A stretch of DNA of 64,000 nucleotides from the NCBI RefSeq assembly GCF_022201045.2, contig NC_068564.1, positions 28,425,001 to 28,489,000 on the forward strand, written 5' to 3'. The notes under the pieces were generated by a model. The model searched no databases. It worked only from the letters and a program-made list of their open reading frames with translations, and was not told where the DNA came from. The DNA comes from Citrus sinensis (taxonomy: Eukaryota; Streptophyta; Magnoliopsida; Sapindales; Rutaceae). A program made the position numbers and the translations under genes. Shown piece by piece: positions 24,922-64,000 of this stretch (positions are counted from its first letter, which is position 1; each line of letters starts with the position of its first letter).

Positions 24922-25842
24922 ATGGCCTGCAACGATGCAAATCTTGAACCGTTGCTCTCTGGACTAGCAGATGAGCAATTGGCCTCTGCATTAGTAGGAT
25001 CAACAAATCAAACAAACAACAAAGATGCTCCCAATGGAAGAAGAAGAAGGCTTCATCGCAGTACAAGTGCCCCTGCAGCTCCACTACAAAACTCAATTCC
25101 TCCTCCTGAATCCAATTCTGCCATACGCCGTCCAAATACTAGGAAGGCGGTTGTGTTCCTGGCCATATATCTTGGCATAGGCACCATTTGCTTCTACGCC
25201 GTCAAGAGCCAAATCAAAGGAATGAAAAATGATGGAATCCTAGACGGAATCATAGATTCCGTCTATTTCTGCGTGGTGACAATGACTGCTATAGGGCATG
25301 GAGATCTCATGCCTAATAGCGTCCTCTCAAAACTACTTGTATGTGCTTTTGTTTTGACAGGAATGGCTCTATTCGCACTACTAGTGCTGGCCAAAGCAGT
25401 CGACTATCTATTCAATAAGCATGCAGTTTTGATAGTTAAAGCGCTGCACACGTATGAAATAGCTGATCTAAACGGCATTCTGAATGAGATCGAGACAAGC
25501 AAAGTGAGATACAAATGCATCAAGATATTGATCAGTTTGCCACTTCTAATACTTGTCAGTGCCGTCTTCCAAGTTACCATTGATAAAATGGATGTCGTTG
25601 ACGCAATCTGTTGCTCATGTGCTACGATCACGACTTTAGGCTGTGGTGACATGAGCTTCTCAAAGTCAGAAGGACGAATTTTTGCTGTGTATTGGATCTT
25701 GATCAGTTGTATTTCTTTAACTCTGTTATTCCTCTACGTTGCTGAGCTAAATATAGAAAGAAGATTAAGTTCACTCGTGAAGCGGGTTCTTGCTTATAAA
25801 ACTAGACATGAAGATTTGGAGACATGTGTAGCTGATGCCTGA
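24922..25842 (+). CDS. TPK copy 2, intact TPK-like channel with altered filters
   Basis: An open frame of 306 residues in the TPK family, whose members form dimeric K+ channels mostly in the vacuolar membrane. I start at 24,922 because the in-frame ATG at 24,862 lies upstream of the leader-intron acceptor (ends 24,876) shared by all five copies. The 14-3-3 site RSTSAP is perfect. TM1, pore 1, TM2, TM3, pore 2 and TM4 are all recognisable. The selectivity filters are GHGD and GCGD instead of GYGD, so normal K+ selectivity is doubtful. The protein ends at a stop just before where TPK1 continues into its EF-hand exon, so calcium control is lost. It may be a non-conducting or modifier subunit, or a young pseudogene. 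Confidence 0.85.
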   Translation: MACNDANLEPLLSGLADEQLASALVGSTNQTNNKDAPNGRRRRLHRSTSAPAAPLQNSIPPPESNSAIRRPNTRKAVVFLAIYLGIGTICFYAVKSQIKGMKNDGILDGIIDSVYFCVVTMTAIGHGDLMPNSVLSKLLVCAFVLTGMALFALLVLAKAVDYLFNKHAVLIVKALHTYEIADLNGILNEIETSKVRYKCIKILISLPLLILVSAVFQVTIDKMDVVDAICCSCATITTLGCGDMSFSKSEGRIFAVYWILISCISLTLLFLYVAELNIERRLSSLVKRVLAYKTRHEDLETCVADA

Positions 25843-33700: not shown

Positions 33701-36370
33701 CTCGCCATTTATAGCCTCATACCTCTCCTGGTTGAAGTACCTCCTTTTCTGCCTTACTGTTCGAGCACCTTTCTTTATTACCAGCTTATGACATGCTACC
33801 TCAGGATCAATCCCTGGCATGTCTTCATGTGTCCAAGCAAACACATCTACATGAGCCTGTAAGCATTTCACCAACTCCTGCTTATGCTCTTCCTGAAGTC
33901 TCGACCCGATTTTGATCGTCTTTCCCGGATTCTCTGGTCCCAGGCTTACGGTCTCCAACTCCTCTACGGGTTCTTGTCTACCATTCTTGTTTTTCACTCG
34001 GGCATCAAGGGATGTTATCTACATTGCTTCCCTTGCTGCCGAGGAGTAACAGCTTCTAGCGATTCTCTGGTCTCCTCGTACCACCCCGACTACCCCGTTC
34101 ACCCGGTACTTGAGAGCCAGATAATGGTTAGACAGTACTGCTTTGCTCATCCTCAGAAACGGCCGACTTAGGATCATCTGATATGGACCTTCTTCATCCA
34201 CCACCACAAAGTCTAGTATCATAGTTCTTTCTATCGGGGAGCTCCCAATTGTGATAGGCAGCTCGACCACACCTAGGGGGACCAGCTTTCCTCCTCCGAA
34301 TCCCTTCAAGGAGGTATTGGTGTATTCCAACTTCAGGTCTGTTATTCCCATTTCCTCCAGGGTTGACTTAAACAACACGTCAACTGAGCTCCCTGTGTCA
34401 ACCAGTATCCTGTCAAACTTCTTGCTAGCGATAGTGGTCTTGATGACCAAAGCATCCTCATGGGGGTACAGAATTCTTTCTTCATCCTCATCTGTCCACA
34501 TAATTGGCACTTGCCTGACTCTTACACGTTTGGCTGCTGGGGTGTTGAAGAATACATTTTTGCTAGTCATGGCGTATCTAGCATAGTTCTTCCTCGACTT
34601 GTTGGAATCTTCGGCCAATGTTGGGCCCCCAGCTATCACCCTAACTGCAGGCTGCTCGCGTCTCAAGTTCCTGTCTCTCTGCTCCCCTTCACTTGTCGAG
34701 GCTACCATTGGGAAGGTCCCATCTATAAACTCGTCCAGGTACCGATTTCTCACCAAATCTTCAACCTGGGTCTTGAGATCTCTACACTCTGCTGTGGTAT
34801 GGCCATGAGTGCCATGGAACTTACAATAGCGTCCTTTATCTCTCCTGCCGGGTAGCTTTATTATTGGGGCATGGAGGTACAGCAATCTTCGGTCTTTTAT
34901 GGCCTCGTACAGCTCGTCCAAGGACATCTTCAATGAAGTATACCACCCATAGTCCTGGTTCTGGTCGATCAGGTGTACTGCCCTTTCTCTATTTGCTCCG
35001 TTTTGAGTTGGGGGTAGTGGCAGCACTTCTGGTCTGCTCCCTCTACTGCCGTGGGAGTATTGATGAAGACCACCATATGTCGAATCATGCCTTTTCCAAG
35101 GCTCCCTAGCTGGGGAACGAGGAGGCTGCGCCCTGCTGCGCTGATATTGTGGTGGCCTCTGATGAGGCTGGTAAGCTGTTACCCGACCTCCTGCTCCACT
35201 ACCTGAGGCCTGGTGGTCCCTCCTCTTGATCGGCCCATTCCCTGGTGGTGCCCTCTTCTCTTTCTTTTCCAACCCTTCTAGCTGGTCAGTCTTAATCCGA
35301 GCCGCCTTTTCTTCCTCGATCTCTATGTCTTTTTTAGCCTGCTCATATACGGCCGCATATGACTGAATAACTGGGCTTCTCAAGTTGTACCACAGCCTTC
35401 CTATCTTCACTCCCTCTTTCAATCCCCTTAGTGCCTGAGGATGGTTGAAGGCTCCCAAATCGAGGACAGCACGATGAAACCTCTTGATGAATTCCCGAAG
35501 GGTTTCTTGCTCCCCCTGTTTCATGCTTTTCAGCTCCATCATGTCATCTTCTGGTGCCATCGCCCCACTAAACTGCTCTGCGAATTCCTGACACATCTGC
35601 TCGAAGGTTTTAATGCTGCCCCGAGGAAGTTTCCTGCACCACTCTCGTGCACGTCCCTCAAGGGATAGTGGGAACACCCTGCACTTTTGGGATTGAGATA
35701 ATCATTGTACCCCAGTTATCTCGTTGAAGCGCTCTATGTGCATCAACAGATCAGTTCTTCCTGCGTATCTAAGGTCTGGGAGGCGGAAATCCCTTGGAAT
35801 AATTGCCCTCATGATCTCTGCTGCGAGCGGTGATTCTCCGTCCAGCATTATCCTCCAACCAGGAGCTCTGCTCCTTCCTTGCATGTAGTCAATTATCTGC
35901 ACTAGTCTGCGCACTTCCTCCTCCAGCTGCACTGCACGACCAGGGTCACGTGTTGCAACTTGATTCCGCTCTTGCTCTACATCATGCAAGTGTTGCCTCA
36001 ACTCCGTTTCCTCTGCATTCGCCACCCCGTCGTCCTCGTCAAAAATCTGTCTTGCTGGGGACTGCTCTTCCTCTCTATGAAATTCTCCCCGCAGAGGTAT
36101 GTTATCTCTCTCACCACCAAATCTCCCAGTTGTTTGACTTCTCCTCGCACTATCAGGACCTGGTGCCACTCCACCACCTCTCACCCTTTCCTCCTGGGTT
36201 ACCCTGCGTTCACTCCGCAGCTCATGTAGGATGGTTGTCAGGGTCTCCATTTGCTTTTCCATCCGGTCGAACATGGCTTTTTCCCGTGCTTCACTGGCTA
36301 TCTCCCTCAGCGTCACGGAATCGTTAAGCCTAATATCACCCCCTTGTGCACTGCTTCCTCATGTGTCCAT
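30733..36370 (-). pseudogene. gag-pol polyprotein of Tat copy 1 (broken)
   Basis: One ancestral frame runs from the ATG at 36,370 through gag, protease (DTGSS), reverse transcriptase (YVDD near 33,290-33,303), RNase H, a second archaeal-type RNase H, and integrase (HHCC, then D, D and E motifs). It is cut by TGA at codon 4 (36,361-36,359) and by in-frame stops at about 35,704, 34,018 and 32,005. An extra T in a seven-T run at 31,014-31,020 shifts the integrase C-terminus into the frame ending at 30,733. The second Tat copy keeps sense codons at the first three positions. The element cannot make its own polyprotein. Confidence 0.9.
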
Positions 36371-36426
36371 TGCTTTTCACTTGCTTAACTCATCTTCTTG
36401 CTATCAATAGAAGCTTTTTGCTCAGT

Positions 36427-36444
36427 TCCCCACAGACGGCGCCA
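36427..36444 (-). other. Primer binding site of Tat copy 1
   Basis: In element orientation TGGCGCCGTCTGTGGGGA begins three bases after the 5' LTR. Its first part matches the 3' end of plant tRNA-Asp; this variant is typical for Tat elements. Confidence 0.75.
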
Positions 36445-36447
36445 AAA

Positions 36448-38289
36448 TGTTGATGCGATATTCTGGTTACACTCTTCCTACGACCAGGATATCTGTGAAA
36501 TATAAGTGTGCAACCCAAGAGGGGGGTGAATTGGAAATTTAAAAATTATCCTAGCAAATCCACACAACAAGCAATCTAATGTCTTAATAAAAATTGAAAG
36601 CAATAAGTTTAATAAAGGCACAATAATTAAAAGAGTAAGGGAAGAGAAAAACGAACACAATGATTTTTACGTGGTTCGGCTATCCCCGCCTACGTCCACG
36701 CCTCCAAGCACACCGGGCTTGAGGATTTCACTATCCAAGCCTTTCCAAGGCTTCAACAATTACAATTGACTTCGAGGTGTCAATAAACCTTTACAACAAA
36801 GAGATTATCTCCCAATCTCTTCACTCAAGTGTCTCACACACTCAAACTCTTACAAATGAAATGAAGAAATGAAAGTTACAATCAAACTCACTCAATGAGT
36901 AGATATTCAAAGATGAAGAACAATGAATGATTCAATGTTTTGTGTTTTGCAAGTTGTAAGTTCAAGATATCATGTGTGCCTTTTGTTTTTGCTTGTTGGA
37001 GAGCTTCAAAATGAGTTGGATTTGAGTTCTTATAGCTTGAGCTCGAAAACTAGCCGTTATTCACATTCTGGGCTATCCGGTTTGCCGTTTAATGGAATCC
37101 GGTAAGCCGGATTTATGTTACCGTTAAGGCAAAATTCAAAATTTTGCCTAACCGGCTTGCCGGATTCGGAATCCGGTAAGCCGTTTTCGTTCTGGTGCTT
37201 ACTGCCCCGAATTCGGCTTGTCGTTTATCAGTAATCGGTAAGCCGCTTGCTACAGTAACCTGCTACAGTAAAATATTTCCCGAAATTTATAGTTTAACCC
37301 CAAAACTTTATAAAACTGTAGTATGGCCTAAAAAGTTATAAAAGTTTACAAACAGGTCCAATTTCAGAATTTTAAATAATGCTTTCTCAATCCCACAATT
37401 TTTTGAAATTATGACTTCGCCCAAACTTTATGAAATTACAGAATGGCCCAAAAATATTTAAATAGTTTCAAATAGGTCCAAATCCGAAATTTAAAACACT
37501 ATTAAAGATTTTGAAATTACTTTCATTTTAGTCCAAAATGCTTTAATTCCATAACATCATTTTCTTATTATAAAAGCACAATTCATAAATCTTTACTCAA
37601 TAAATACATGTGGTTTGTTATCATCAAAATCAATATTTATAGCCATATAGGCTAACAATCTGCTCGACCAACCTCACCTCGATCAGGATCTCTCCTCGTA
37701 CGCTTTCTGCTCCAGGTATTCCTGCGTCCACAGAAACAAGTCAGAGCACGCCGGTTGTTTTTCCGGCGTAAACCCTCCGACGCTCAAGTCAGATATGAAG
37801 GTTCCGGGAACGCTTGCCACGGATCTTATGGCTTTTCTGTAATCTCCGTTCTTTAGAGTTCTCTTTTCTTAGTTCTAAATAGCAAAAATTCTAACCCTTT
37901 TACCTTCGTTGGCTACCTTTTTATAGGCTTCCTCTGAATCCCGGTCTTCCGCAGTCTACGCCCGTCATTCTCCCCACTCTCGGATGTGGACGCCCCATTA
38001 TCGCCATTGTGGGCGAATGGAGTCGGACCTCGTGCCTTAATTCTCGGATAGGAACGCACGTCCTGCCAACTGTCGTTGACTGGGTCTCCTCGCCTCGACC
38101 TTTAGCAGGAATGACCTTATGCCTCTAACGGGAGTTCGGCCTTGCGAATGGCATATTCGTGGATGAGCAGAATATTTCTACTCCTATTCCCTTGCTACTT
38201 GGCTCTTACAGGACACACCTGCTCGCAGAACTCTGCCACCAGACACCTGCTCATCACGTCTGGTCTCCTCGATATATTTCCCTCGAACA
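36448..38289 (-). repeat. 5' LTR of Tat copy 1, split by a solo LTR
   Basis: The LTR parts are 36,448-36,495 and 37,663-38,289, together 675 bp once the 5-bp duplication is counted once. A 1,162-bp solo LTR sits between them. Confidence 0.92.
36496..37657 (-). mobile_element. Nested solo LTR (Copia-like) inside the Tat 5' LTR
   Basis: 1,162 bp with TG and CA termini and a perfect 5-bp target duplication ATCTG at 36,491-36,495 and 37,658-37,662. In minus orientation it starts TGTTAGCC and contains the ACCACGTAAAAATC motif typical of plant Copia LTRs. No internal coding region is present. It is younger than the Tat insertion that holds it. Confidence 0.9.
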
Positions 38290-42834: not shown

Positions 42835-44017
42835 ATGGCCTCCAATGGTGCAAATCAGCCGCTGCTCTCAGGATTTGTTGATTCAACGCCTCAAACAAAT
42901 AATAAAGATGCTCCCAAGAGAAGAAGGCTTCGTCGGTGTAGAAGTGCTCCCCAGACTGATGTTGCTGCTCTAGACATAAATGAAAAAGACTCAACTCACC
43001 TTTCTGAGTCCCTTTTTGGCAAACCCCGCCCAAATTTTAAGAGGGTACTTGTCTACCTGGCTGCCTACCTTGGTGGGGGGTCATTATCCTTCTATGCTGT
43101 CAACAGTCAAATCGAAGGACTAAAAACCAATGAAATTCTAGATTCTATTTATTTCTGCATCGTGACAATGACCACTGTAGGGTATGGAGACCTTGTGCCT
43201 AATAGTGTCGTTTCGAAACTACTTTCCTGTGCTTTTGTTTTCACAGGGATGGGTCTAGTTGGTATGTTTCTGAGCAAAGCAGCCGACTATCTGGTCGACA
43301 AGCAGGAAATATTGCTGGTTAAAGCCCTACACAGGTATCAAAAAGTTGGCCCGACTGATATTCTAAAGGAGATTGAAACCAACAAAGTGAGATACAAATG
43401 CATCATCATGTTGGTCCTTGAGTTGGTTCTCATTCTCGTTGGGACCATCTTCCTGGTTGTGGTTGAGAAAATGAGCTTTGTTGATGCGTTCTATTGTGTT
43501 TGTTCTACCATCACCACCTTAGGCTATGGTGACAAGAGCTTCTCAACTACGGGAGGGCGTGCTTTTGGTGTAGTTTGGATCTCAAGTAGTACTATGACCT
43601 TAGCACAGTTCTTTCTGTACGTTGCCGAGTTCAATACTGAAAAAAGACAAAAGGCACTCGTCAATTGGGTTCTTACTCGAAAAATGACCCACGTTGATTT
43701 GGAGGCAGCTGATATTGATGAAGATGGGGTTGTCAGGTAAGTTGATTTTCAGTAAGTTCAAGCTTATGCTTTCTTTCCAATTACTATATATCTTGTTTAT
43801 TGCCTTCAATTTAAACTACCGCCGATTCTTTTTTCCCGCGCTCTATTACTGCAGTGCTGCTGAGTTCATAATATATAAGCTGAAAGAAATGGGCAAGATT
43901 AGCCAAGAAGATATTGCACTAGTAATGGAGGAGTTTCAGGATCTTGATTTTGATCAATCCGGAACCTTGTCGCCGTCGGATCTATTTCTTGCCCAAGATT
44001 CTCAAACAAAGAGCTGA
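42835..44017 (+). CDS. TPK1: Two-pore K+ channel, TPK1-like (complete)
   Basis: Two coding exons, 42,835-43,736 and 43,855-44,017, with a GTAAGT donor and TGCAG acceptor, give 354 residues (Arabidopsis TPK1 has 363). The family forms Ca2+-activated, voltage-independent K+ channels of the tonoplast. TM1 is at about 71-90, filter GYGD at 116-119, TM2 at 126-147, TM3 at 190-210, filter GYGD at 230-233 and TM4 at 243-266. Two EF-hands follow, beginning DIDEDG (about 293) and DLDFDQSG; the intron lies inside the first. The 14-3-3 site is R-C-R-S-A-P (34-39), with Cys where the duplicates have Ser. A non-coding leader at about 41,840-42,060 and an intron ending at 42,807 precede the ATG. It is the only fully normal copy of the five in the array. 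Confidence 0.95.
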
Positions 44018-48408: not shown

Positions 48409-49167
48409 TGTTTGGGAAAAATTCATCGATGAGACCAACTATACCCTGGACGAGGAGCCAGCTTCCTTATAAGCGAGCAGGTGGGCAGAAATCTGGTGGC
48501 AGGTATCAACGAGCAGGAATCTTCTGCTCGGTCACGAGGACGCCCTCTTCTGGACCATAGCGCGTGTCGGCCTCCTGTTAGGAGCTGAGAGCCATTCTTG
48601 TTGAAGACCTGAGCTAACAGACCCGATCCATAACGATTAACGAGATGTGCACTCCTATATGAGAATCTAAGCACGAAGCCCACTCAGCCACAACTACGAT
48701 AGTCAAGTACCCACTTCCGAGAGCTGGTGGAAGTTATGGACGTGGATCGTGGGGGGGGGGGATTCGTAGGAATGCTATAAAAAGGTAATCAACGAAGGTA
48801 AACGGGTTAGACATTTTCACATTAGAATTTAAAGAAAAGCATCTTTATTGAGAGAATAAAGAAAAACTCAGAGGCATTTTTTATTGTCTAAGAGATTAAA
48901 GAACAGCCACGAGATTAGTGGCCAAATTTCCCACAAAAGTAAACTAACATTTTTGACTTGAGCGTCAGAGGGTTTACGCCGGAAAAACTCCCGGCGTGCT
49001 CTGACCAATTTCTGTATGCGTAGGAGTCTGGTAAAGTAGAAGTCATACTAGGCATTGTTCTGCTCGGTTAGAAGGGTTACGAGGAGAATCTGCTATTGGT
49101 CGTGAATTTGAGAGTTGAGGAAAGATCCTAGTCGTGAACGAGCAGACACCAGAATCTCGCATCAACA
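48409..49167 (+). repeat. 5' LTR of a second Tat element (copy 2)
   Basis: Starts TGTTTGGGAAAAATT and ends CTCGCATCAACA. It aligns at both ends with the LTR of Tat copy 1 read in element orientation, but is clearly diverged. The PBS follows directly. The 3' LTR is not in the window; it must lie beyond the Athila insertion. Confidence 0.85.
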
Positions 49168-49170
49168 TTT

Positions 49171-49188
49171 TGGAGCCGTCTGTGGGGA
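49171..49188 (+). other. Primer binding site of Tat copy 2
   Basis: TGGAGCCGTCTGTGGGGA begins four bases after the LTR. It differs by one base (C to A) from the PBS of copy 1. Confidence 0.75.
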
Positions 49189-50684
49189 GCTGAACAAAAA
49201 GCTTCCGTTAATAGAGAGGAGAAGAAGAAAAAGAGTGAGGAGACAATGGACGTTGGTGGGGGTAGTGCCCAAGGGGGTTATTTGAGGCTTAACGAGTCTG
49301 TGACACTGAGAGAGATAACCAATGAAGCACGAGAAAAAGTAATGTATGACCGGATGGAACAGATGGAGAAACAGATGAAGACTCTGACAATTATCTTACA
49401 CGAGATGAGAAATGAGCGAAGGGGAATTCAAGAGGAGGGGATGAAAAGTGGTGGAATAACACGAGGGCACGTTGACAAAAGGAACAACAATGACATGATG
49501 AGAGGTAGGACCACCGGGGGATTTGGTGGTGAAGCGGGTAACCGATCTCTACGAGGAGAAAGTCATGGGAGAGGAGATCAATCCCCGGAGAAACAGGTCT
49601 TTGATAATGATGACGAAGTTGTGAATGAAGAGGAAAGGGAACTCTGGCAACACTTGCATGACGTCGAGCAAGAACGAGATCGAGTTGCAGCACGTGACCT
49701 TAGTCGAGCCATACAACTCGAGGAAGAAGTGCGCAGACTAGCGCAGATAATAGATGACATGCAAGGACGGAGCAGAGAACCTGGTCGGAGGATAATGTTG
49801 GACGGTGAATCGCCCCTCTTGGCAGAAATCATGAGTGCAGTCATCCCGATGAATTTTTGCTTCCCAAACCTAAAGTACTCAGGGTGAACCGATCCATTGG
49901 TGCACATAGAGCGCTTCAATGATATAATTGGGGTACATGGATTATCTCATGCTCAAAAGTGCAGGGTGTTCTCGCACCTTAAGTCATTCGAGCAGATGTG
50001 CAAGGAATTTGCAGAGCAATTTCGGGGGGCAATGGCACCTGAAGATGATATGATGGAGCTGACAAGCATGAACTAAGGAGATGATGAAACCCTTCGAGAG
50101 TTCATCAAAAGGTTCCATCGCTCTGTCATTGATTTGGGGGCCTTCAACCATCCCCAAACATTGAGGGGATTGAAAGAAGGGGTGAAGATAGGACGGCTGT
50201 GGTACAATTTGAAGAGACCAGCCATTTAGACATATTTTGCAGCTTATGAGTAGGCCAAGAGAGATATAGAGGTTGAGGAAGAAAAGACAGCAATGATCAA
50301 GACAGACCAACTGGAAGGGTTGAGAATGAAAGAGAAGAGAGCCCTACTAGGAAATTGGTCGATTAAGAAAAAAGACCATCATGCCTCAAGCAGTGGTACA
50401 GGAGGCCGGGTCACCTCTTACCAACCTCATTAGAGGCCACCCCAATATCAGCGTAGCAGGATGCAATCTCCTCGTTCACCAGCCAGAGATTCCTGAAGAA
50501 GGCATGACCAGACATACAGTCATCCTTATCCACACCCACACGGTGGTAGAGGAAGCAGACCAGAGGCACCGATGCCCCCTCCAGCTCAGAACGGCACCCA
50601 CAGGGAAATGGCGGTGCATATGATCGACCAGGGCCAAAGCTATGGGCGGTATACTTTCTTGAAGGTGCTCCTGGATGAGGTGTA

Positions 50685-52311
50685 TGTTGAGTGTTAGAAA
50701 ATGCATATTTATAAAGGAGAAAATCATCATTTTACACTTTAAGTCTTACTAACACCCTTACTTTTATATAATTAAGCTTCTTGTGATTTAATTACGTGTG
50801 TTTTATTTTAATTAAGTATTTTATATATTTTAGGGGCATTATGATCATTTCACAATGAACGAGAGATCAGACGGCAAAACGTACATCACTTTTGAACTCA
50901 GGATGGTTGAAAACCTTAGGAAGAGTATAAAAGGAAAAATGACATTAGAGATGGCAAAACCCCGGGCCGGGTCCAGGTATTGCCATGATCGAACCCTGCC
51001 CGGATGCAACCGGTCCGGGTCCGGGTTCGGGCCGGGTTTTAATCCGGGTACCCGGATTTTATATTTTTTAATATTTTATGTGTATATATTTTTTATTTTT
51101 TGGTAATTTTATAAGTTTTAAATTTATTTCAATAAAATTTGACATGAAAATATAAACTTTAAGTGTTTAAAACTTTATATATGTATAATAAATAAGTTAA
51201 ATAAATATAAAATATTTAAAATAATATATATTTTATAATTTTTTTTAATAAAATCAGGGTTCCGGGTTTATCAAGTGATGCCCAAGACCGACCCGGCTTC
51301 ATACCCGGGCCGGGTAGCAATGCCTGGGTACGGTCTGGGTCCGGACCGGGCGGATATTTTTGCCACCTCTAAATGACATTATTCACATGTACGGTACTGT
51401 CTACGTTACTGTTCACGACACTGTTGGCATAGACGAATCGATGACGTGGCATTGACCGATGATGTGGCATTGACTGATGAGGTGTCACGATCCTGTTGGA
51501 CTAAAATTCTTATGCAATGTTGATCGATGACGTGGCATTATATCAGTGGACCAAAAATCTCACGTATGGTACATGCATTACACATGATTATTTTCAACAA
51601 AACTGCGTCATTGTTCAAGCTGGATCAAACCGTGTTACTGTTCACCCGCGTGGTCAAACCGCGTACTGTTGACTGATGACGTGGCGCAATCTTGAGCGTC
51701 CGAATTATTTTCAATCCAATGGTCATGATTTACTCAATGTATCTATAAAAAGGGGGCTCTCCCCCCCTAATTTGATATATCTGAATTCATTTTTGGACTC
51801 CATTTTCTGTAATTCCCTCTCCATCTTGTATTTTCTACGTATTTTAATAAATTTTCTTTTTGCCCCTAGTTCAATTATGAGTCGACAAATAATAATAATC
51901 TTGTCTAGATACCGCCTTGGTTTCACCGGCTCTTTAGTACAAGATTATTATTATTTGGCACGATAAGCCTTTAGCACCATATTGATTAGAGTGTGGTTCA
52001 TGAGGTGTGGATTCCCCCCTCATGATTTAATTGGTATTAATAAAGAATATTTAGCCCATGGTGCATGTTGATACGGATCCAGATACCCAAATACGTCAAT
52101 TTAATAGACTTTCACTTCAATTTACTCTTGCCATCTTAATTTGAATTTTAGGATAATCCAAATCATTTTCACCACAAATCCAATCACATTCATACAAAAT
52201 TAATTCTACATATAATTAAAATCCACCTCTGCGTGGGATCGACACTCGTCACCATTGATCTATACTACAATAGATTCGTGCACTTGCGAGTTCAATAAAA
52301 TTTACACAACA
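50685..52311 (+). mobile_element. Solo LTR of the Athila family, nested in Tat copy 2
   Basis: Starts TGTTGAGTG and ends ACACAACA, flanked by a perfect 5-bp duplication GTGTA (50,680-50,684 and 52,312-52,316). It is the same family as the LTR at 54,813-56,154. About 1,193 bp remain once the internal MITE is removed. A TATA box CTATAAAAAG lies at 51,743-51,752. Three TGACGTGGC boxes lie upstream of it at 51,442, 51,528 and 51,677. Relative to the other copy it lacks about 120 bp near 51,885. Confidence 0.92.
50946..51371. mobile_element. hAT-type MITE inside the solo LTR
   Basis: 426 bp with terminal inverted repeats TAGAGATGGCAAAA and (complement of the right end) TAGAGGTGGCAAAAA. It is flanked by a perfect 8-bp duplication AATGACAT at 50,938-50,945 and 51,372-51,379. 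Subterminal regions are packed with CCGGGT/ACCCGG-type repeats and the centre is AT-rich. There is no coding capacity. The homologous LTR at 54,813 lacks it. Confidence 0.93.
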
Positions 52312-54812
52312 GTGTATGAGGCCATAAAGGACCGGGGATTATTGTACCCTCTACACCAATAACAAAGCTGCCCAGCAGGAGAGATAAGGGGTGATATTGT
52401 AATTTTCATGGTACCCACGGTCATACTACGACCGAATGCAGGGATCTTAAGACTCAGGTTGAAGATTTGGTAAGAAATCGTTACATGGACGAGTTTGTAG
52501 ATGGGGCTATCTCGATCGTGAGTTCGTAATGTGAAGGGGAGCAGAGTAATAGAAACATAAGCCACGAGCAGCCGATGGTAAGGGTAATCGCGGGGGGCCC
52601 AACGTTGGCGGGAGTCTCCATCATATCGAGGAAGAACTACGCTAGGTATGCCATGACTAGCAAAGAAGTGTTCTTTAATACCCCAATAGCCAAGCGAGCA
52701 AGAATCAGGCAAGTGCCGATCATGTGGACGGATGACGATGACGAGGGAATTCTATATCCACATGAGGACGCCTTAGTCATTAAGGCCACCGCAGCCGCCA
52801 AGAGGTTTGATCGGATCCTGGTAGATACGGGAAGTTCAGTCGATGTCCTGTTCAAGTCAACTCTGGAGGAGATGAAAATAATAGACTTGAGGTTAGAGCA
52901 TACCAATACCTCCTTGAAGGGGTTTGGTGGAGGAAAGCTGGTCCCTCTAGGCATAGTCGAACTGCCCATCACAATTGGTAGCTCACTGACAGAAAAAACC
53001 ATGATCTTGGATTTTGTGGTGGTTGATGAAGAGAGTCCTTACCAGATGATTCTGGGCCGCCCCTTCCTGAGGACGAGCAAAGCAATGCTCTCCAACCATT
53101 ACTTAGCTCTCAAGTATCGAGTGAATGGAGTAATGAGGGTGGTACGAGGAGCCCATAGAATTGTCCGAAGCTGTTACTCCACAGCAGCAAGGGAAGCAAT
53201 GCAGATCACATCGTTTGATACTCGAGTGAAAGTCAAGGATGGCAGACAAGAGCCGGTTAAGGAACTCGAAACGGTAAATTTGGAACAAGGTGACTCGAGA
53301 AAAACAATATGAATCGGGTCAAAGCTTAAAGAAGACCAGAAGCAAGAGCTAGTGCATTGTCTGTGGGCTCACATAGATGTGTTTGCTTGGACACATGAAG
53401 ATATGCCAGGAATCGACCTTGAGGTGGCTTGCCATAGGTTGGCAATAATAAAGGGTGTTCGACAGGTAAGGTAAAAAAGAAGATGTTTCAATCAGGAGAG
53501 GTACGAAGTAATAAATGGTGAAGTAGAGAAGCCCTTGAAGGCGGGGTGCATTCGGGAAGTCAACTACCCCGAATGGATATCGAATGTTGTTATGGTAAAG
53601 AAGGCTAATGGGAAATAGAGAATGTGCATTGATTTCACCGACCTCCACAAGGCGTGCCCGAAAAATAGTTTTCCCTTGCCGAAGATCGACCAGCTGGTTG
53701 ATTCAACAGCCGGTCATGGGCTGCTTAGCTTCATGGATGCATTTTCAGGATATAATCAAATCCCAATGTACGAGCAGGATGAGGAGAGCACGACATTTAT
53801 CACTAACCAAGGTTTGTTCTGTAACAGGATAATGTCATTTGGTCTAAAAAATGGGGGTGCCACATACCAGAGGTTGGTGAACAAAATCTTTAAATCGTTA
53901 ATTGGAAGGACGATGGAGGTTAATCTTTAAGCTGTTGATTAAGAGGATGATAGAGGTTTATGTGGACGACATGATAACCAAATCGAAGAGCCCGAATGAA
54001 CATGTCATGCATCTCGAGGAGACATTTGAGCTTTTGAGGAAGTACAAGATGAAGCTCAACCCGAGCCTTTGGGGTCGAGTCGGGAAAATTCCTAGGATTC
54101 ATGGTGAGTCATCGGGGGATCGAGGCAAATCTTGAAAAGATCCAGGCAATCGTGCAGATGAGGTCCCCTCGTAACCTGAAGGAGATACAGAGCCTTACGG
54201 GGAAGTTGGCAGCACTGAGTCGATTCATATCCAAGGCGACAGATAAGTGTCAAGCCTTTTTTCAAGTGATAAGGAGATGAAGGAAAACAGAATGGACCCC
54301 CGAATGTGAAGAAGCCTTCCAAAACTTGAAACAATATCTGCAGTGAGCACCTTTGTTGTCCACGCCGCGGAAGGAGGACGTATTGTTCCTATATATGGCG
54401 GTATCAGATCATTCTACGAGCTCGGTTCTAGTGAGAGAGGAAGAAAGGGTTCAGTATCCGATATATTACGCAAGTAAGGCCCTACTCAATGCTGAGACTA
54501 GATACCCACCGTTGGAGAAATGAGCACTTGCTCTTGTGGTTGCTGCTCGAAAGTTGAGACCATACTTTCAAGCATTCCCCGTCTCGGTAATAAAAAACCA
54601 ACCGTTGCGGCAGACTATACACAAGACAGATGCTTCTGGCCAGCTAGTGAAATGGGCCATAGAACTGAGCGAGTTCGATGTAAGTTATAAACCCCGAGCA
54701 GAAATAAAAGCCCAGGCAGTAGCAGACTTCGTGGCAGAATTCACAGAGCCCGAAGTAGGTTTCGACCAGCTGGGTGCTGCTACAGTCATCAACGAGGATC
54801 GGGTATGGCAGG

Positions 54813-56154
54813 TGTTGAGTGTTAGAAAATGCATATTTATAAAGGAGAAAACCGTCATTTTACATTTCAAGTCTTACTAACACTTTTACTTTTATGAATT
54901 TAACATTCTTCTGATTTAATTCCGTTTGTTTTATTTTAATTAAGTATTTTATGTATTTTAGGGGCATCATAGTTATTTCACAATAAACGAGAGATCAGAT
55001 GGCAAAACGGACATCACTTTTGAACTCAGGACGGTCGAAAACCTTAGGAGGAGCATAAAAGGAAAAATAGCACTATTCACATGTACGGTACTATTCACGT
55101 GTACGGTACTGTATACGTTACTGTTCACGACACTGTTCACATAGACAGACGATGACGTGGCATTGACCGATGATGTGGCATTGACTGATGAGGTGTCACG
55201 ATCCTGTTGGGCTAAAATTCTTATGTACTGTTGATGGTGATGTGGCAGCATATCAGTGGACGAAACATCTCGCGTACGGTACATGCATCACACAGGATTA
55301 TTTTCAACCAAACCACGTTATTACTCATCCGGGTCAAACCGTGTTACTGTTCATCCGCGTGGTCAAACTGCGTACTGTTGACTGATGACGTGGCGCAATC
55401 CTGAGTGTCCAAACTGTTTTTAATCTGATGGCCATGATTTACTCCATGTATCTATAAAAAGGGGGCCTCTCCCCCCTAATTTGATATCTCTGAATCCATT
55501 TTCTGTAATTCCTTCTCCATCTTGTATTTTCTTCATATTTTAATAAATTTCCATTTTGCCCCTAGTTCAATTATGAGTGGCTAATTTTCTTTCAAGCTTG
55601 GATTGAAGGTGAAGTCTCAACATGTGTCATGGGTTTTATTTGGTAAATTTATTTTCTCTTCCCCTCTAATTTTTGTGGATGTTTTGACTTCTCGTCGACA
55701 AATAATAATAGTCTTGTCTAGATACCGCATTGGTTACATCGGCTCTCTAGTATAAGGTTATTATTATTTGGCACGATAAGCCCTTAGCACCATATTGATT
55801 AGAGCGTGGTTCATGAGGTGTGGATTCCTCCCTCATGATTTAATTGGTATTAATAAGGAATATTTAGCCCATGATGCATGTTGATACGGATCCAGATACC
55901 CAAGTTCGTCATTTCAATAGAATTCTCTTCAATTTATTCTCACCATTTCAATACCAATTTTAGAATTTATTCTCGCCATTTTAATTTAAGTTTTAGCATA
56001 TTCCAAATCATTTCCACCACAAATCCAATCACCCATTCACAAAATTAATTCTACACAATTAAAATCTACCTCCTCGTGGGATCGACACTCGTCACTATTG
56101 ATCTATACTACAATAGATTCGTGCGTTTGCGAGTACATTAAAATTTGCACAATA
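54813..56154 (+). repeat. 5' LTR of the Athila element
   Basis: About 1,342 bp, starting TGTTGAGTG. The terminal CAACA of the family has become CAATA here. TATA box CTATAAAAAG at 55,452-55,461. TGACGTGGC boxes lie at 55,153-55,161 and 55,386-55,394, and a third site near 55,239 is mutated. Short direct repeats of TACTGTTCAC type cluster at about 55,070-55,140. Confidence 0.9.
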
Positions 56155-56160
56155 AGTTTT

Positions 56161-56178
56161 TGGCGCCGTTGTCGGAGA
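56161..56178 (+). other. Primer binding site of the Athila element
   Basis: TGGCGCCGTTGTCGGAGA is complementary to the 3' end of plant tRNA-Asp with two mismatches; this is the usual primer of the Athila lineage. Confidence 0.85.
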
Positions 56179-56544: not shown

Positions 56545-59500
56545 ATGCATGGTCGTAGGTCATTATTACCTAATCTTGAACCTATAGACCTTGAACTAGA
56601 AAAAACACTTCCCACGCACAAGAACGTTAAAAATAAAATGGATTTACAAGCACCACAGGAGAGCCCATTTAAGGACTATTTTAGTCCCTTAGCTAATTTG
56701 AGCACATCATGCATAAGATACCCAAATGTAGCTGCTAGGAGTTTTGAATTAAAACCCAGTATGCTAAATTGTCTCCCAACATTCTATGGCCTAGAAAATG
56801 AGGACCCATATAATCATCTGAATGATTTTCATGCCATTTGTCAAACTTTTAAATATGAAAATTTTTCAGACGATGATGTTAAACTTAGACTATTCCCATT
56901 TTCTTTAAAAAATAGAGCTCGTTCATGGTTAAATACTTTACCTGCTAATAGCATTTCATCATGGGAACAAATGGTAACGAAATTTTTGAATAAATATTTC
57001 CCAGTGCATAAAACCAATGCTATTCGCAGGGAAATCTCAGAGTTTACTCAGAGAGAAGACGAGCAGTTTTTTGAAACATGGGAGCGATTCAATGGGCTAC
57101 TCTTGAAGTGTCCACATCATGGGTATGAGAAATGGCACAAATGCCAATACTTTTTAGAGGGATTACTGCCGAATGTGCGAGAATGGCTAATGGCAAAAAG
57201 TGGAGGAGAATGGCTAATCGATCACTCAGGAATACTAGAAGAATTAAAGGAGTGAATGAGGTTCACATTGGCGAGTCAACTTCGGGAATCAAAGAAGTCA
57301 AGGAGATGGTTGAAGGTCTTGCTCGACAAATAGCATCGTTATCGACTGCTAAATCAACAAAGCCATATGACCCTGACTCATATCCAGATCAAGCCAATGC
57401 CATAGGTGTAATGAGAAAGCCATCAAATTATAACCCATACTCCAACACATATAACCCTGGATGGAGAGACCACCCCAATTTTTCATGGTCTCAAGGACTT
57501 CAACAGAATGGACCAGCAGCTCCAGCTCTACCAATGCAACCAATTCCTCAAATTCCTCAAATTCCTCAAGCCTCTCAGCCCCCATTTAGACCATACAATC
57601 AGAACCAGAACTACACTCAGCCCAGACCATGGGAGGATTCATTCTAGAATCTTAAGAATCTTACTCACTCCACGATTGAGCAACAGAACCGCACCATTGA
57701 TGGACTACGAAATGAGTTGAGAGCAAGCTTCAATTCACAAGCCCAATCAATTTCAAGCCTTGAAAAGATGGTGGGATAACTTGCTTCTTCAGTTCAGACC
57801 TTGGCAATGACTGTTGAGAAAGGCAAATTTCCAAGTCAACTAGTGCCTAATCCTAAAGGAGTGCATGAAGCAAGCACCAGTTCACCACAACAGCATGGAG
57901 AAGTCAAAGCAGTTATGATCTTGTGAAAAGGAAAAGAAGTCGACAACAAAGTGGAGATGCCGGTGACAAAAAAAAATCAAATTGTACCTGTGAGTGTTGA
58001 CGACTCATCACCGGAGGAGAAAGAAGAAACCAACCCACAAGAATATGTTCCTAAGGCTCCATTTCCTCAGAGGTTAGCTAAAGGAAAAAAGGGAAAATCC
58101 ACAGGTGAGATTCTTGAAATCTTCAAACAGGTAAGTGTTAACATCCCTTTGCTTGATGCTATTAAACAAGTTCCATTTTATGCCAAGTTTCTTAAAGACC
58201 TTTGTACTAAAAAGAGAAATATGCATGTTCAAAATAAGGTATTTTTAACAGAAAACGTTAGTTCTATACTCCAACATAAAATTCCTTTAAAATGCAAGGA
58301 CCCAGGCTCCCCCACTATCTCATGTAGTATAGGGAACCACACAATTGAGAATGCTTTGTTGGATTTAGGAGCTAGTGTAAATCTATTGCCTTACTCAGTA
58401 TTTTTTAAACTTGGACTTGGAGAATTACACCCAACTCCAGTGGTGTTACAACTTACAGATCGGTCCACGAAAATACCTCGTGGTATTGTGGAGGACGTGC
58501 TTATCCAGGTAGACAAGTTTTATTTCCCTGTTGATTTCATTGTAATTGACACTCAACCAATACAAGATTCAAGGAAGCACATCCCCATTATTCTAGGCCG
58601 ACCTTTCTTAGCAACTGCGGATGCTCACATTCAATGCAGGACTGAAAATATGCAGTTGTCCTTCGGCAACATGACTATGGAACTGAACATCTTCAACATT
58701 GCCAAACAACCTCACAATGCAGATGATGGAATTGTTGATGTGGATTTAATTGAAGCATTAGTTGATGACACTTTTCTTTCAAATCTTAGTGATGATCCTT
58801 TACAAACATGTTTAACTCACTTTGGTTTGGATTTTGATATTAACAGATCAGTAGATGAGGTTAATGCCCTACTTGACTCAGCACCATCCATGGACACTAA
58901 TAAATGGAAGTCAAGAGTTGAACAACTAGCACCATCAGAAAAGAAACTCATCCCATCATCAGAATCACCACCGAAACTCGAGCTCAAACCATTGCCCAAC
59001 ACTCTAGAATATGCATTTTTGGGAGAAGAAAGCACTCTGCCGGTTATCATTTCATCATCCCTCAATGACGAACAAAAAGGTAAGTTGTTGGATGTTTTAA
59101 AAGAGCACAAAGGAGCATTAGGATGGACCATAGCAGACATAAAAGGTATAAACCCAGTAGACTGCATGCATTACATTCACCTTGATGAAAATGCTAAAAC
59201 TACTAGGAAAATGCAACGTTGGTTAAATCCTAACATGAAAGAAGTTGTTAGAACTGAAGTCCTTAAGCTATTAGATGCAGGTATCATTTACCCAATTTCT
59301 GATAGTTCATGGGTCAGTCCTGTACAAGTTGTCCCTAAAAAGTCAGGAGTCACAGTAGTTACGAATGTTGATAATGAATTGATACCCACTAGAGTAACTA
59401 CAGGATGACGTGTATGCATTGATTATAGAAAATTGAATTCTGTCACACGTAAAGACCATTTTCCTTTACCATTTATTGATCAAATGCTCGATAGATTAGC

Positions 59501-61879
59501 AGGTCATGAATTTTATTGCTTTTTAGATGGCTACTCAGGATATAATCAGATTCTCATAGCACCAAAAGATCAAGAGAAAACTACTTTCACTTGCCCTTTT
59601 GGCACATTTGCATATAGGAGAATGCCATTTGGATTATGTAATGCACCTGCTACATTTCAACGATGCATGGTAAGCATTTTTTTTGATATGGTCGAACGAT
59701 TCCTTGAAGTCTTTATGGATGACTTTTCTGTCTTTGGTGATTCGTTTGATCAATGTTTACATCATCTAACACTAGTTCTGCAGAGATGTATCGAGAAGAA
59801 CTTGGTCTTAAATTGGGAGAAATGCCATTTTATGGTAAAACAAGGTATTGTTCTCAGTCACATCATTTCGAGCAAAGGTATTGAGGTTGACAAAGCCAAG
59901 GTAGATCTCATTTCTAATCTTCCTCCACCCAAAACAGTCAGAGAAGTAAGATCTTTTCTTGGGCATGCTGGTTTCTATAGACGTTTCATTAAAGATTTTA
60001 GCAAAGTTTCTAGACCCTTATGCAATTTACTTGCTAAGGATGTACCTTTTATCTTTAATGATTCATGTCTTGTGGCTTTTGAAAAATTAAAACAGTTGTT
60101 GACATCATCACCCATCATTCAGGCCCCGAACTGGAGCTTACCATTTGAGCTCATGTGTGATGCATCTGATTATGCAGTATGAGCAGTTTTAGGACAAAGA
60201 GTTGATCGAATTCCCCACGTTATTTACTATGCTAGTATGACATTGAATGATGCACAGTTGAACTATTCAACTACTGAAAAAGAAATGCTAGCAGTAGTGT
60301 TTGCATTAGAAAAATTTCGATCTTATCTCATTGGTTGTAAAATAATTGTGTTCACAGATCATGCTGCTCTTAAATATCTTCTCACAAAGAAAGATGCAAA
60401 AGCCAGACTAATTCGTTGGGTGTTACTTTTGCAGGAATTTGACTTGGAATTCAAAGATAAGAAAGGGACAAAAAATGTTGTGGCGGATCATCTCTCTCGT
60501 CTCCATTTTGACACAATTACAGAGCCATTAATATTGAATGAGTCATTTTCAGATGAACAATTAATGAGTGTGGAAGTATTACCTTGGTATGCTGATATAG
60601 TTAATTATCTTGTTACAGGTAAACTTCCAGAGCATTGGACCAAGCAAGACAAGGCTAAATTCTTTGCAGAGATAAAAAATTTCTTTTGGGATGACCCGTA
60701 TTTGTTCAAGTATTGTGCTGATCAAATTGTTAGACGATGTGTCCCAGAAAATGAAATTCATAATATTCTTTCATTCTGCCATGAACAAGCTTGTGGAGGC
60801 CATTTCAGTGCTAAGAAAACAGCAACTAAAGTTTTACAATGTGGTTTCTATTGGCAAATTATATTTCGAGACGCTTACACTTTCTGTTCTTCATGTGATA
60901 GGTGTCAACGAATGGGGAGCATTACGCGAAGGAATATGATGCCACTAAATCCAATTTTAGTGGTTGAGATTTTTAATGTATGGGGTATTGACTTCATGGG
61001 ACCATTTCCCCCGTCTTTTGGCCATCAATACATATTGGTTGCTGTTGACTACATATCGAAATGGGTAGAAGCAATTCCATGTAGGACCAATGATCACAAG
61101 GTGGTGATAGCATTTTTGAAAAGCAATATTGTTTCACGCTTTGAATTCCCTCGAGCGATAATCAGTGATGGTGGTGCCCACTTTTGTAACAAAGCATTCA
61201 AAGCTCTTTTGACAAAGTATTCAATCACACACAAAGTGGCAACCCCATATCATCCGCAAACCAGTGGCCAAGTTGAGATATCCAATCGAGAAATAAAGCA
61301 CATATTAGAAAAAACGGTGAGGCCAAACAGGAAAGATTGGTCATCAAGACTTGATGATGCATTATGGGCATATAGAACGGCTTTCAAGACCCCGATTGGG
61401 ATGTCACCCTACAGGCTAGTGTATGGAAAAGCTTGCCACCTACTTGTGGAACTCGAGCATCGTGCATATTGGGCCATCAAGAAATTCAATTTTGACATGC
61501 AGCAAGCCAGCTCAGAAAGAAGATTACAGCTGACAGAACTTGAAGAAATTCGCAATGAGGCATACGAAAATACCAAGATTTACAAGCAACGAATGAAAGT
61601 CTTCCATGATAAGCAAATTATGAGAAAATCGTTCACTCCAGGTCAGAAAGTGCTTTTATTCAATTCTCGCTTGCACCTATTCCCAGGTAAGCTACGCTCT
61701 CGTTGGTCTGGCCCATTTATTGTTCATACTATTTTTCCACGTGGGGCAATTGAAATTAAGGACCCAAGAACGGTGTAACGTTTAAAGTTAATGGTCAAAT
61801 ATTAAAGCCATATCTAGAATACCAACCACATGGAGAAGACATCGAAATAAATTTGAGAGACCCACCAAATTTGAATTGA
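56545..61879 (+). pseudogene. gag-pol polyprotein of the Athila element (broken)
   Basis: Gag starts at the ATG at 56,545. A frameshift lies near 57,240-57,265. From there one frame carries the rest of gag, protease (DLGAS), reverse transcriptase (FMDD near 59,715), RNase H and integrase (H-H-C-C near 60,770-60,910, then D, D and E motifs). In-frame stops occur at 57,645, 57,777, 57,924, 59,406 and 60,180. Another one-base shift near 61,765 precedes the natural C-terminus ending at 61,879. The domains are otherwise well conserved, so decay is recent. Confidence 0.9.
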
Positions 61880-62006: not shown

Positions 62007-62240
62007 ATGAGTACCTTACTTAGACCGTTCCTCCTGAACATTCTTAAACCACTTCAACGTGTCAAAACTCATCTCAAAAGGCAGATTCAATTTTGTAAAA
62101 CACATCGCATTTGGGCTCTACAGCCACCAGAGTTAGTAGCCTATGTTGAGGGTTTAAAAAGCCAACTCAGAGACATTGAGAGAAGTGTTTATGACATCCA
62201 GTTGGAGCTTGAGGTAAATTCAATAAGAGGACGATTTTAA
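62007..62240 (+). CDS. Accessory ORF A of the Athila element, small basic protein
   Basis: 77 codons. The first half is strongly basic (KTHLKRQIQF and neighbours) and the second half looks like a short amphipathic or coiled helix (VEGLKSQLRDIERSV). I recognise no domain. It is the first ATG after the putative splice acceptor, which makes a genuine product more credible, but it is short and could be chance. Confidence 0.4.
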   Translation: MSTLLRPFLLNILKPLQRVKTHLKRQIQFCKTHRIWALQPPELVAYVEGLKSQLRDIERSVYDIQLELEVNSIRGRF

Positions 62241-62381: not shown

Positions 62382-63008
62382 ATGGACAGAAACGATACTC
62401 TAGCGAAGCTTCACAAGCGATTCCCTTCACTTACTCAGAATGCCCTCCTTATGATTTATAAAGCTCGGTCCGAACGCATGCGATTGCTCATGAGGAATAA
62501 CATACCTGCTGATATCCGTTGGTTAATTGAGGCGAAAGTACGATCGGCTGGTGAGTTGCCTCCAAAATTTATTGCATACATGCCTGGTTGTGGTAAAGGA
62601 AATTATGCAAGAAAACGACGAGCTCGAAGAATTTCTATTGCTTGTCATAAGTGTGCCAGAATGAGTTGCAATACAAACCCATGTTCTTTAGGAATGGTGT
62701 CTGATAACAGGGAAGATAAAATTCAATTCATTAGGGATGACTTGAATAAGGAGTCATTGGATGATATCCTTTTGTCTCTTGAAACACATCCCAGTGGATA
62801 TGTGCAAGGAGCGATTCTCCAGTTATGGCCATTATTCCAGAAAGAGCATGCACGATATAGCCTCGGAAATCTGACTGTAAACGACCATGTTTGCCAGTTT
62901 ATAAGAAAACTGGATATGAAGCCTATCCTCGACCCATAGAGGGCGTTCAAGCCGTTTCTGGACGTAAAATTAGAGGAAGATGTGAGCCACAGTCGCAACT
63001 ACCTGTAA
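62382..63008 (+). pseudogene. Accessory ORF B of the Athila element, basic cysteine-cluster protein
   Basis: Open from 62,382 to a TAG at 62,937; the same frame continues with protein-like sequence to TAA at 63,006, so the TAG may be a late mutation. The N-terminal half is helical and basic. A run YARKRRARR lies at about residues 75-83, then CHKCARMSCNTNPC, four cysteines with the CX2CX4CX4C spacing of a retroviral zinc knuckle but Cys in place of His. An acidic, helix-rich C-terminus follows. This suggests nucleic-acid binding. A basic run directly before a four-cysteine cluster is also the layout of small cysteine-rich proteins of some plant RNA viruses. No homology is proved. It occupies the position of the env-like ORF. 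Confidence 0.55.
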
Positions 63009-63260: not shown

Positions 63261-63929
63261 ATGGCAACTACTCCAAATAGACAATTCAAGAACATTTGTG
63301 TGCTTTCTGGATTTACATATGGCAAACATAAAGAGTTCGTTGAGGCAGCCATAGATCTTGGTCGCAGCATAGCAGCGAGAAAATTACACTTGGTGTATGG
63401 AGGAGGTAACCGAGGGTCATAAAAAATGGTCTCAGAAGCAGCTTTTATCAGAGGAAGTCAAGTGTTAGGCATCATCCCAAGAGTCTTAAAACCATTGGGC
63501 AGTTCGTCTGACTCATCAACTGGAGAAGAGTTAGTCGTCTCAGGTATGCAAGAAAGAATAACTGAAATGCTTAATCATACTGATACTTTTATTTTCCTTC
63601 CAGGAGATCTTGCAACACTAGAGGCACTTATCACACTAGCATCTTGGGCCCATTTGCACATCCACTAGAAACCCATCGGTTTCTTAAATGTCAATAACTT
63701 TTATGATGGCTTTATCGCATTTCTTAACCATGCAATAAAAAACTATTTCATTCCTTCTAATGTGAAAAAACTTTTTATTTGTGCTCACACTGTTAATGAG
63801 CTACTTGATCTGTTACAAGCTTATAAACCGGAGCCAGACCCATGGACCTTTGTGTTGGAGCGCCCAAATAATGATGGTAACAGTAGCCGCAGTAAGAAGT
63901 ACAAATTAGATTTAACTCTCCGCTTGTAA
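63261..63929 (+). pseudogene. LOG-family (cytokinin phosphoribohydrolase) coding sequence captured by the Athila element
   Basis: One frame of 222 codons matches LOG proteins from end to end; intact LOGs are about 215 residues. LOGs release active cytokinin bases from nucleotide precursors. Visible landmarks are the start ICVLSGFTYGKHKEFVEAA, the VYGGG loop, GIIPRVL, the MQERITEM helix (Arg kept) and KPIGFLNV. The catalytic PGGxGTxxE motif reads PGDLATLEA, with both middle glycines changed. In-frame stops are TAA at 63,420 and TAG at 63,666. No introns are present, although plant LOG genes have several, so the copy came through RNA. It lies inside the element, after pol and two other ORFs and before the (unseen) 3' LTR. 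Confidence 0.85.
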
Positions 63930-64000
63930 ATATTTTCTTTTGTGTTACACCACCCAGGTGATGTCTTCTAAACTCTACTTCTTTCCTTTCAAACATTGAG

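Follow-up and report, generated by a model that had tools for sequence, protein, structure and literature searches.

A captured LOG sequence in a family of Athila-like Citrus retrotransposons: a probable conserved pseudoenzyme encoded beside a carlavirus-like cysteine-rich protein

Why would a plant retrotransposon carry a sequence related to LONELY GUY (LOG), a family of cytokinin-activating phosphoribohydrolases? The question is raised by a 64,000-nucleotide stretch of the Citrus sinensis genome (C9:28425001-28489000; genome size 299.7 Mb, 11 contigs; hereafter the window), in which an intronless LOG frame of 222 codons plus stop lies on the plus strand at 63261-63929. In the window copy, the frame is interrupted by two internal stops, at codon 54 (TAA, 63420-63422) and codon 136 (TAG, 63666-63668). 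The first-pass annotation described the frame as a hormone-activating enzyme captured by an Athila-type element and considered this copy to be dead, both because of the stops and because of an altered active-site motif. When plant LTR retrotransposons capture a gene, the event is commonly regarded as passive transduction. In the present case, the active site has been replaced and the sequence is nevertheless conserved, and therefore the element probably uses the LOG protein for a purpose other than hormone production.

The capture of LOG by Citrus Gypsy elements is already published (PMC9289625). According to section 12 of this paper, which cites Steinbauerova et al. (2011), the consensus sequences of Gypsy elements contain a YgdH (LOG) domain in C. 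sinensis, in C. clementina and, without a copy filter, in Populus trichocarpa. Another case of capture by an LTR retrotransposon given there is that of an orchid RNA demethylase (PMC9289625). The LOG-bearing elements reported in that paper share with the one studied here the LOG-family domain captured in Citrus Gypsy elements. However, section 12, as far as it goes, makes no statement on catalytic residues, selection, a C-terminal tail or a neighbouring gene for a cysteine-rich protein (CRP). Moreover, the literature searched, in which few subscription journals were covered, returned no report of lost catalytic residues, selection on LOG, the tail or a carlavirus-type CRP.

The boundaries of the element could be defined by examining 6 kb of DNA across the right border of the window for a 3' LTR. 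The 5' LTR (1342 bp; 54813-56154, plus strand) pairs with a 3' LTR that lies beyond the window at C9:28490797-28492839, equivalent to window positions 65797-67839. The two LTRs are 96-97% identical, and the 3' LTR carries a 681-bp insert. A 5-bp target-site duplication, GCAGG, abuts the start of the 5' LTR (54808-54812) and, outside the window, the end of the 3' LTR. Between the two LTRs, 46 of 1342 aligned sites differ (K2P 0.0353), which corresponds to an age of about 1.4 million years at an assumed rate of 1.3e-8 per site per year. The primer-binding site TGGCGCCGTTG (56161-56178, plus strand), as read from the sequence, is presumably of the tRNA-Asp type. The gag and pol genes run to about 61778, upstream of three small genes. 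On the plus strand, they comprise the protease region of the polyprotein, which is an open frame (57951-59408; PF13650, E 4.4e-5), the reverse transcriptase region, which is closed by a stop in the window copy (59433-60182; PF00078, E 1e-24), and the RNase H and integrase region (60237-61778; PF17917, E 7.5e-24; PF00665, E 1.1e-15). Thus, the LOG frame is located between pol and the 3' LTR, in the env position, as the first-pass annotation had it, and the 3' LTR that it expected to the right of position 64,000 is present and belongs to the same element.

The order PR-RT-RH-INT of pol within an LTR pair flanked by a 5-bp target duplication, together with the extra frames between pol and the 3' LTR, identifies a Gypsy retrotransposon. 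This part of the earlier classification stands, and the Athila label derives from the primer site and the layout, for which reason the element may be called Athila-like. A second (archaeal-type) RNase H, a mark of Tat elements, does not appear in the general Pfam list of the pol pieces. Steinbauerova et al. reportedly described in 2011 two Athila-like elements with similarity to LOGL4.

The surroundings of the element contain further repeats. A solo LTR that belongs to the family of the element's own LTRs, in pieces 87-90% identical to 54813-56154, lies at 50685-52311 between GTGTA target duplications (50680-50684 and 52312-52316), and its host is another Gypsy element. Within the solo LTR, there is an insert of ~430 bp (about 50941-51372) with GC-rich ends, inverted ends AGAGATGGCAAAA / TTTTTGCCACCTCT and flanks AAATGACATT, which by its appearance we take to be a hAT-type MITE. 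The other Gypsy element, judging from its frames presumably of the Tat/Ogre type, is present in two diverged copies (75-81%), at 49148-54780 and, inverted, at 32472-36467; both the LOG element and the solo LTR are nested within or adjacent to the plus-strand copy at 49148-54780. In addition, two uninterrupted frames about 18 kb apart (24862-25842 and 42835-43740) have the pore motifs GYGD and GHGD, from which we assume that they are two-pore potassium channel-like genes.

The LOG frame is a trait of a large family of elements. With the LOG protein P0123 as the query, 2106 first-look candidates were obtained genome-wide, of which 150 were scored and a single one contained an internal stop; the queries P0222 and P0217 led to further subfamilies and to more broken copies. 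A set of 69 copies (68 loci plus the window) was divided into the subfamilies A (L001-L008 and the window), B (L010-L039), C (L050 and L052-L069) and D (L040-L049 and L051). An intact LOG frame (215 aa or more) is found in 38 of the 69 copies, which confirms the earlier supposition that intact copies exist elsewhere in the family. The CRP gene is located upstream of LOG in 64 copies, was not found in L016, L017, L028, L035 and L037, and is intact (at least 178 aa) in half of the 64, namely in 32; over the whole genome, 1826 first-look candidates were obtained with a CRP query. The third small gene, a family-conserved ORF of 77 aa (62007-62240, plus strand) with no convincing domain, has a match in 60 of the 69 copies, and in 33 of these the frame is open over 77 aa. 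Some Citrus gene models even fuse CRP with LOG (P0005, P0116, P0165, P0194 and P0204). Subfamily C is near-uniform, with a 224-aa LOG frame and a mean dS of 0.016 within the group, and thus stems from a recent burst.

A degenerate DNA pattern for the altered active-site motif in its alanine form matched 1001 places in the genome (507 + 494), and the reversed-pattern control matched none. Because at least 1001 genomic places carry its altered motif, the LOG frame can be regarded as a family gene that other copies carry as well, just as the first-pass annotation had proposed. The LTR pair, the matching target duplications that enclose the frame and the 1001 places also refute the idea that a processed LOG pseudogene came to lie beside the element by chance. 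Given in addition the CRP gene upstream of LOG in 64 of 69 copies, we assign practically no probability to it. A nested insertion was likewise rejected on the basis of the LTR pair, the target duplications and the 1001 genomic places.

The frame was said to match the LOG family over its full length and to be free of introns, and both statements hold. When it is split at the stops, pieces 2 and 3 match PF03641 (E=7.1e-12 and 9.9e-7, respectively), and piece 1 alone gives a sub-threshold SLOG match (E=0.029). A protein search with X at both stops revealed 475 proteins at E<=1e-3; among the best 120 of these, many are 85-95% identical over 100% of the frame, and all named rows are from Citrus. 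A search with P0217, which aimed at LOG-bearing elements outside Citrus, returned 556 proteins, and again the named rows among the best 120 are all from Citrus. PF03641 was found in 20 of 20 element-encoded LOG proteins (retro-LOGs) at E<=1e-3, and four of four exceeded the TIGR00730 cut-off of 96.35 bits (121.9 for P0123; 124.4, 122.9 and 120.7 for the others). By these profile matches, the retro-LOGs can be assigned to the LOG superfamily (Rossmann-type, TIGR00730 / PF03641).

The best relatives of known structure over LOG residues 7-191 are the plant LONELY GUY phosphoribohydrolases AtLOG3 (2A33, E 1.3e-43) and AtLOG8 (1YDH, E 7.6e-39). An AlphaFold model of the LOG protein had a mean pLDDT of 40.4 and was too poor for use. 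In a 14-row tree, the retro-LOGs form a single clade (100/100), the stem of which measures 1.21 changes per site, and their join to plant versus bacterial LOGs is unsupported either way, the branches being long. It is thus because of the PDB scores, rather than the tree, that a plant origin of the retro-LOGs seems probable. The long stem is as expected if a phase of rapid remodelling came after the capture and constraint set in later. In contrast to the intronless frame of the element, host LOG loci in the same genome consist of several exons. For instance, the loci L072 (C5:38.2 Mb) and L070 (C7:1.41 Mb) encode ...MHQRKAEMA... and GYGTLEE or GFGTLEE spanning exon borders, and both retain the canonical motif.

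The residues of the active site are numbered here according to CgLOG (PMC4979012). In this enzyme, Arg99 and Glu122 are catalytic, and other residues participate in AMP and prenyl binding (PMC4979012). It is also reported there that replacing crucial active-site residues of a bacterial LOG by alanine almost completely abolishes the phosphoribohydrolase activity, with the exception of Ser19 (PMC4979012). In the window copy, codons 114-122 (63600-63626, plus strand) encode PGDLATLEA in place of PGGxGTxxE, and the position of the catalytic glutamate is occupied by alanine in most of the family. Of the best 120 relatives, 108 have Ala at position 122, five have Thr, one each has Asp, Ser, Gly and Val, three have a gap and none has Glu. 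The same relatives show exchanges of His97 to Gln (104), Lys100 to Ile (106), Gly116 to Asp (115), Gly118 to Ala (106) and Glu125 to Thr (115). The equivalent of Arg99 has been retained in 99 of the 120 best relatives and in 37 of the 38 intact genomic copies, and Met96 and Trp129 are largely retained as well. None of the 38 intact copies has Glu122: alanine is present in all copies of subfamilies A (8/8), C (19/19) and D (1/1), and subfamily B drifts at this position (n=10; Ala 6, Thr 2, Val 1, Ser 1).

The genomic motif counts, for which degenerate DNA patterns were used, agree with the alignment; when a short protein sequence was used to search for the exons of host LOG genes, element copies overwhelmed the result. 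If the remainder of the motif is kept constant, the glutamate form occurs at four genomic places compared with 1001 for the alanine form, and its reversed-pattern control gave no match. The canonical G(Y/F)GTxEE pattern occurs at nine places (control 0), which include the two LOG loci L070 and L072. These counts indicate that PGDLATLEA is the fixed state of the family and not damage to the window copy. Intact copies also have no catalytic glutamate, because all four subfamilies share the altered motif. The altered motif can therefore not serve as a sign of a dead copy; of the two grounds given earlier for calling this copy dead, the internal stops remain, which are particular to the window copy.

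The loss of the catalytic glutamate throughout the family also makes a hormone-activating enzyme an unlikely cargo. If the intact copies did encode an active LOG, the element would raise the level of active cytokinin in the cell. The fold family is indeed clear from the TIGR00730 and PF03641 matches, Arg99 has been retained in most relatives, and public databases name P0123-type rows cytokinin riboside 5'-monophosphate phosphoribohydrolase. However, the glutamate and the glycines of the phosphate loop have been replaced nearly family-wide, and alanine exchanges in the active site abolish the activity of the bacterial enzyme (PMC4979012). Moreover, four retro-LOGs failed the LOG equivalog model of NCBIfam, a library built for prokaryote annotation, with 87.9 (P0123), 87.9, 82.7 and 77.4 bits against the 300 bits required. 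Overall, we regard the production of active cytokinin by these proteins as quite improbable. Since Arg99 is retained in 99 of 120 relatives, the proteins may yet act on some substrate.

Purifying selection on the LOG frame is shown by pairwise Nei-Gojobori comparisons of the sequences, which were performed with our own script. The analysis comprised 38 intact LOG copies of the 69, which had been chosen by protein similarity to three queries; the 31 copies with a frame of less than 215 aa were dropped. The dN/dS comparison between copies that had been suggested by the first-pass annotation yielded low values for all pairs of subfamilies (AB 0.180, AC 0.224, AD 0.172, BC 0.236, BD 0.201 and CD 0.207) at mean dS values of 0.52-0.87, and the codon bootstraps of five comparisons stayed within 0.11-0.34. 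Out-of-frame readings of the LOG alignment (representatives) gave 0.52-1.09 and 1.44-2.05. Within the groups, dN/dS is 0.07 (AA, a value biased because the best matches were picked), 0.54 (BB) and 0.22 (CC). The new residues have been kept through synonymous changes, namely GAT/GAC at position 116, GCA/GCG at position 122 and ACA/ACG at position 125.

The CRP gene is under purifying selection, too, with dN/dS values of 0.22-0.25 between subfamily A and B, C or D. The signal is weaker when B, C and D are compared with one another (0.33, 0.36 and 0.54, with a wide bootstrap of 0.26-0.92 for CD), and the six pairs within B gave 1.08. Relative to LOG, the spacer that separates it from CRP shows no clear excess of divergence but contains more gap columns (11-58). 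In the rows compared, A differs from C and D at 0.19-0.29 of the sites of the spacer and at 0.21-0.23 of those of LOG, and C differs from D at 0.11-0.15 and 0.16, respectively. Between C and D, the dS of CRP is 0.145 and that of LOG is 0.517, a contrast that suggests module recombination between subfamilies. With one intact copy of each gene representing D, such an exchange between C and D is to be taken as a lead. Recombination and purifying selection have been reported for Athila elements of Arabidopsis (PMC2410132).

Selection also bears on the view that LOG is hitch-hiking cargo that appears conserved merely because the copies are young. Many copies are young indeed, as is evident from subfamily C and from the LTR pair, and stops are present in many copies. 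However, the subfamilies are 0.52-0.87 synonymous substitutions per site apart and have a dN/dS of 0.17-0.24 in frame and much higher values out of frame, and we thus consider a neutral passenger to be very improbable. Taken together, the family-wide loss of the catalytic glutamate and the purifying selection lead us to the view that the LOG-derived protein is, with good probability, a conserved pseudoenzyme and not a cytokinin activator.

The LOG fold could also have been given a rebuilt active site, by which the protein would act as an enzyme or as a ligand binder for another nucleotide or substrate. This would fit the retention of Arg99, Met96 and Trp129 and the fact that residues 96-130 are 34% variable among eight representatives, which puts the motif region, in its new state, roughly on a par with the remaining core in conservation. 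We know of no activity for PGDLATLEA. The drift of position 122 in subfamily B and the conservation of the C-terminal tail, which comes after a variable linker and points to an interaction role, speak against a rebuilt site. We regard such a site as conceivable and rather doubtful, and a pseudoenzyme that is retained for its fold and its tail is the reading that we prefer.

The tail, KKYKLDLTLRL (63894-63926, plus strand), contains the motif LxLxL, which is one form of the EAR motif. Among eight representatives, the last 11 residues of LOG are 27% variable and the linker after residue 190 is 71% variable. The last 12 residues include LxLxL in 98 of 140 listed proteins and in 54 of the 60 that have a length of 222 or 224 aa; many of the listed proteins without it are truncated or have a different ending. 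The motif was noticed post hoc, and it occurs in 1.5% of the shuffles of P0123, a figure that is uncorrected for the choice of the motif. It is absent from the readable tails of the host LOG loci L070 and L071, of which the latter seems to be broken; the tail of L072 is unreadable past an intron. The downy mildew protein HaRxL21 binds TOPLESS via a C-terminal LxLxL (PMC7446885). Its motif, LMLTL, resembles LDLTLRL of the element LOG in kind and position, but the two proteins are unrelated, and the same study tested ten effectors containing LxLxL without observing TOPLESS binding for any of them (PMC7446885). The binding of TOPLESS by the retro-LOG tail is therefore a prediction from analogy, which we put forward as a hypothesis.

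The CRP gene, the 77-aa ORF and the LxLxL tail had been missed by the first-pass annotation. The CRP gene (62382-62939, plus strand) is open in the window copy and encodes a cysteine-rich zinc-finger protein of 185 aa, in which a basic stretch is followed by a four-cysteine finger. A protein search with this ORF gave 246 matches at E<=10, and the best 120 of them include named rows from Citrus, Xanthoceras, Acer and Populus with identities of 61-87%. The alignment comprised 47 of the best 120 relatives, selected because they are nearly full-length. Cys91 and Cys96 do not vary among these, and Cys88 and Cys100 are at least 90% conserved. PF05515 (Viral_NABP) was detected in 41 and PF01623 (Carla_C4) in 40 of the 47 relatives (E<=0.01, best 1.1e-8), and the CRP of the window scored 16.7 bits, below the gathering score of 20.9. 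Residues 33-121 of P0018 align to positions 111-202 of PF05515, i.e. over about 90 residues. The AlphaFold model of CRP (mean pLDDT 55.9) was too poor for use, and the sole match in the PDB (E=0.18) was taken as chance. Viral contigs scanned with the LOG and CRP proteins and with their alignments contained no confirmed relative.

By profile match, the CRP thus resembles the cysteine-rich nucleic-acid-binding proteins of carlaviruses, allexiviruses and mandariviruses (PF01623, PF05515), with which it shares the basic stretch and the four-cysteine finger. It differs from the carlavirus-type proteins in being encoded by a retrotransposon and in having a C-terminal part that is conserved although the Pfam matches do not cover it. 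Viral CRPs have been described as silencing suppressors, and the CRP of chrysanthemum virus B as a transcription factor that induces hyperplasia (PMC12172455).

The mechanism that in our view would most likely link these observations can be outlined. The LOG-derived protein may act as a scaffold in the host nucleus, whose C-terminal LDLTLRL would engage TOPLESS-type corepressors. The CRP may bind nucleic acid and dampen silencing or alter transcription, as viral CRPs do, and both proteins would aid the expression of the element. Proposed by analogy, this TOPLESS/CRP mechanism is tentative. The explanation as a whole, i.e. a pseudoenzyme kept by selection, with a TOPLESS-engaging tail and a CRP partner that aids the expression of the element, appears moderately likely to us. 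Going further, one may speculate that both genes form a two-protein module for host manipulation, in which a zinc finger shared with viruses and a disarmed hormone enzyme serving as a TOPLESS-recruiting scaffold are kept by selection. The zinc-finger gene would have moved between carla-like RNA viruses and retroelements, in either direction, and the benefit could be an escape from silencing or a cell state that favours the copying of the element. We regard this extension as rather improbable.

Compared with the plant enzymes AtLOG3 and AtLOG8, in which the nearest solved structures are found and whose catalytic arginine is mostly retained, the element LOG is intronless, has replacements of the catalytic glutamate, Lys100, His97 and the loop glycines, possesses an extra tail and is separated by a stem of 1.21 substitutions per site. 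Another system for comparison is found in the env-like frames of Athila and the further additional ORFs that occur in plant LTR retrotransposons (review PMC7264820). In contrast to these, two extra genes of the element studied here have recognisable relatives, one being virus-like and the other a disarmed host enzyme. The cargo is therefore better described as a conserved pseudoenzyme that travels with a virus-like gene. A captured enzyme that is devoid of the catalytic residue known for it and is nonetheless conserved across subfamilies suggests that the element is under selection for a different role of this protein. Moreover, the likeness of the CRP to a viral silencing suppressor turns the presence of virus-like anti-host genes in plant retrotransposons into a testable question. 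Finally, the family is a hazard for genome annotation, since about a thousand element copies share their domain with the nine places that have the canonical LOG motif, and P0123-type rows (P0123 alone has 705 member sequences) carry the name of a cytokinin riboside 5'-monophosphate phosphoribohydrolase in public databases.
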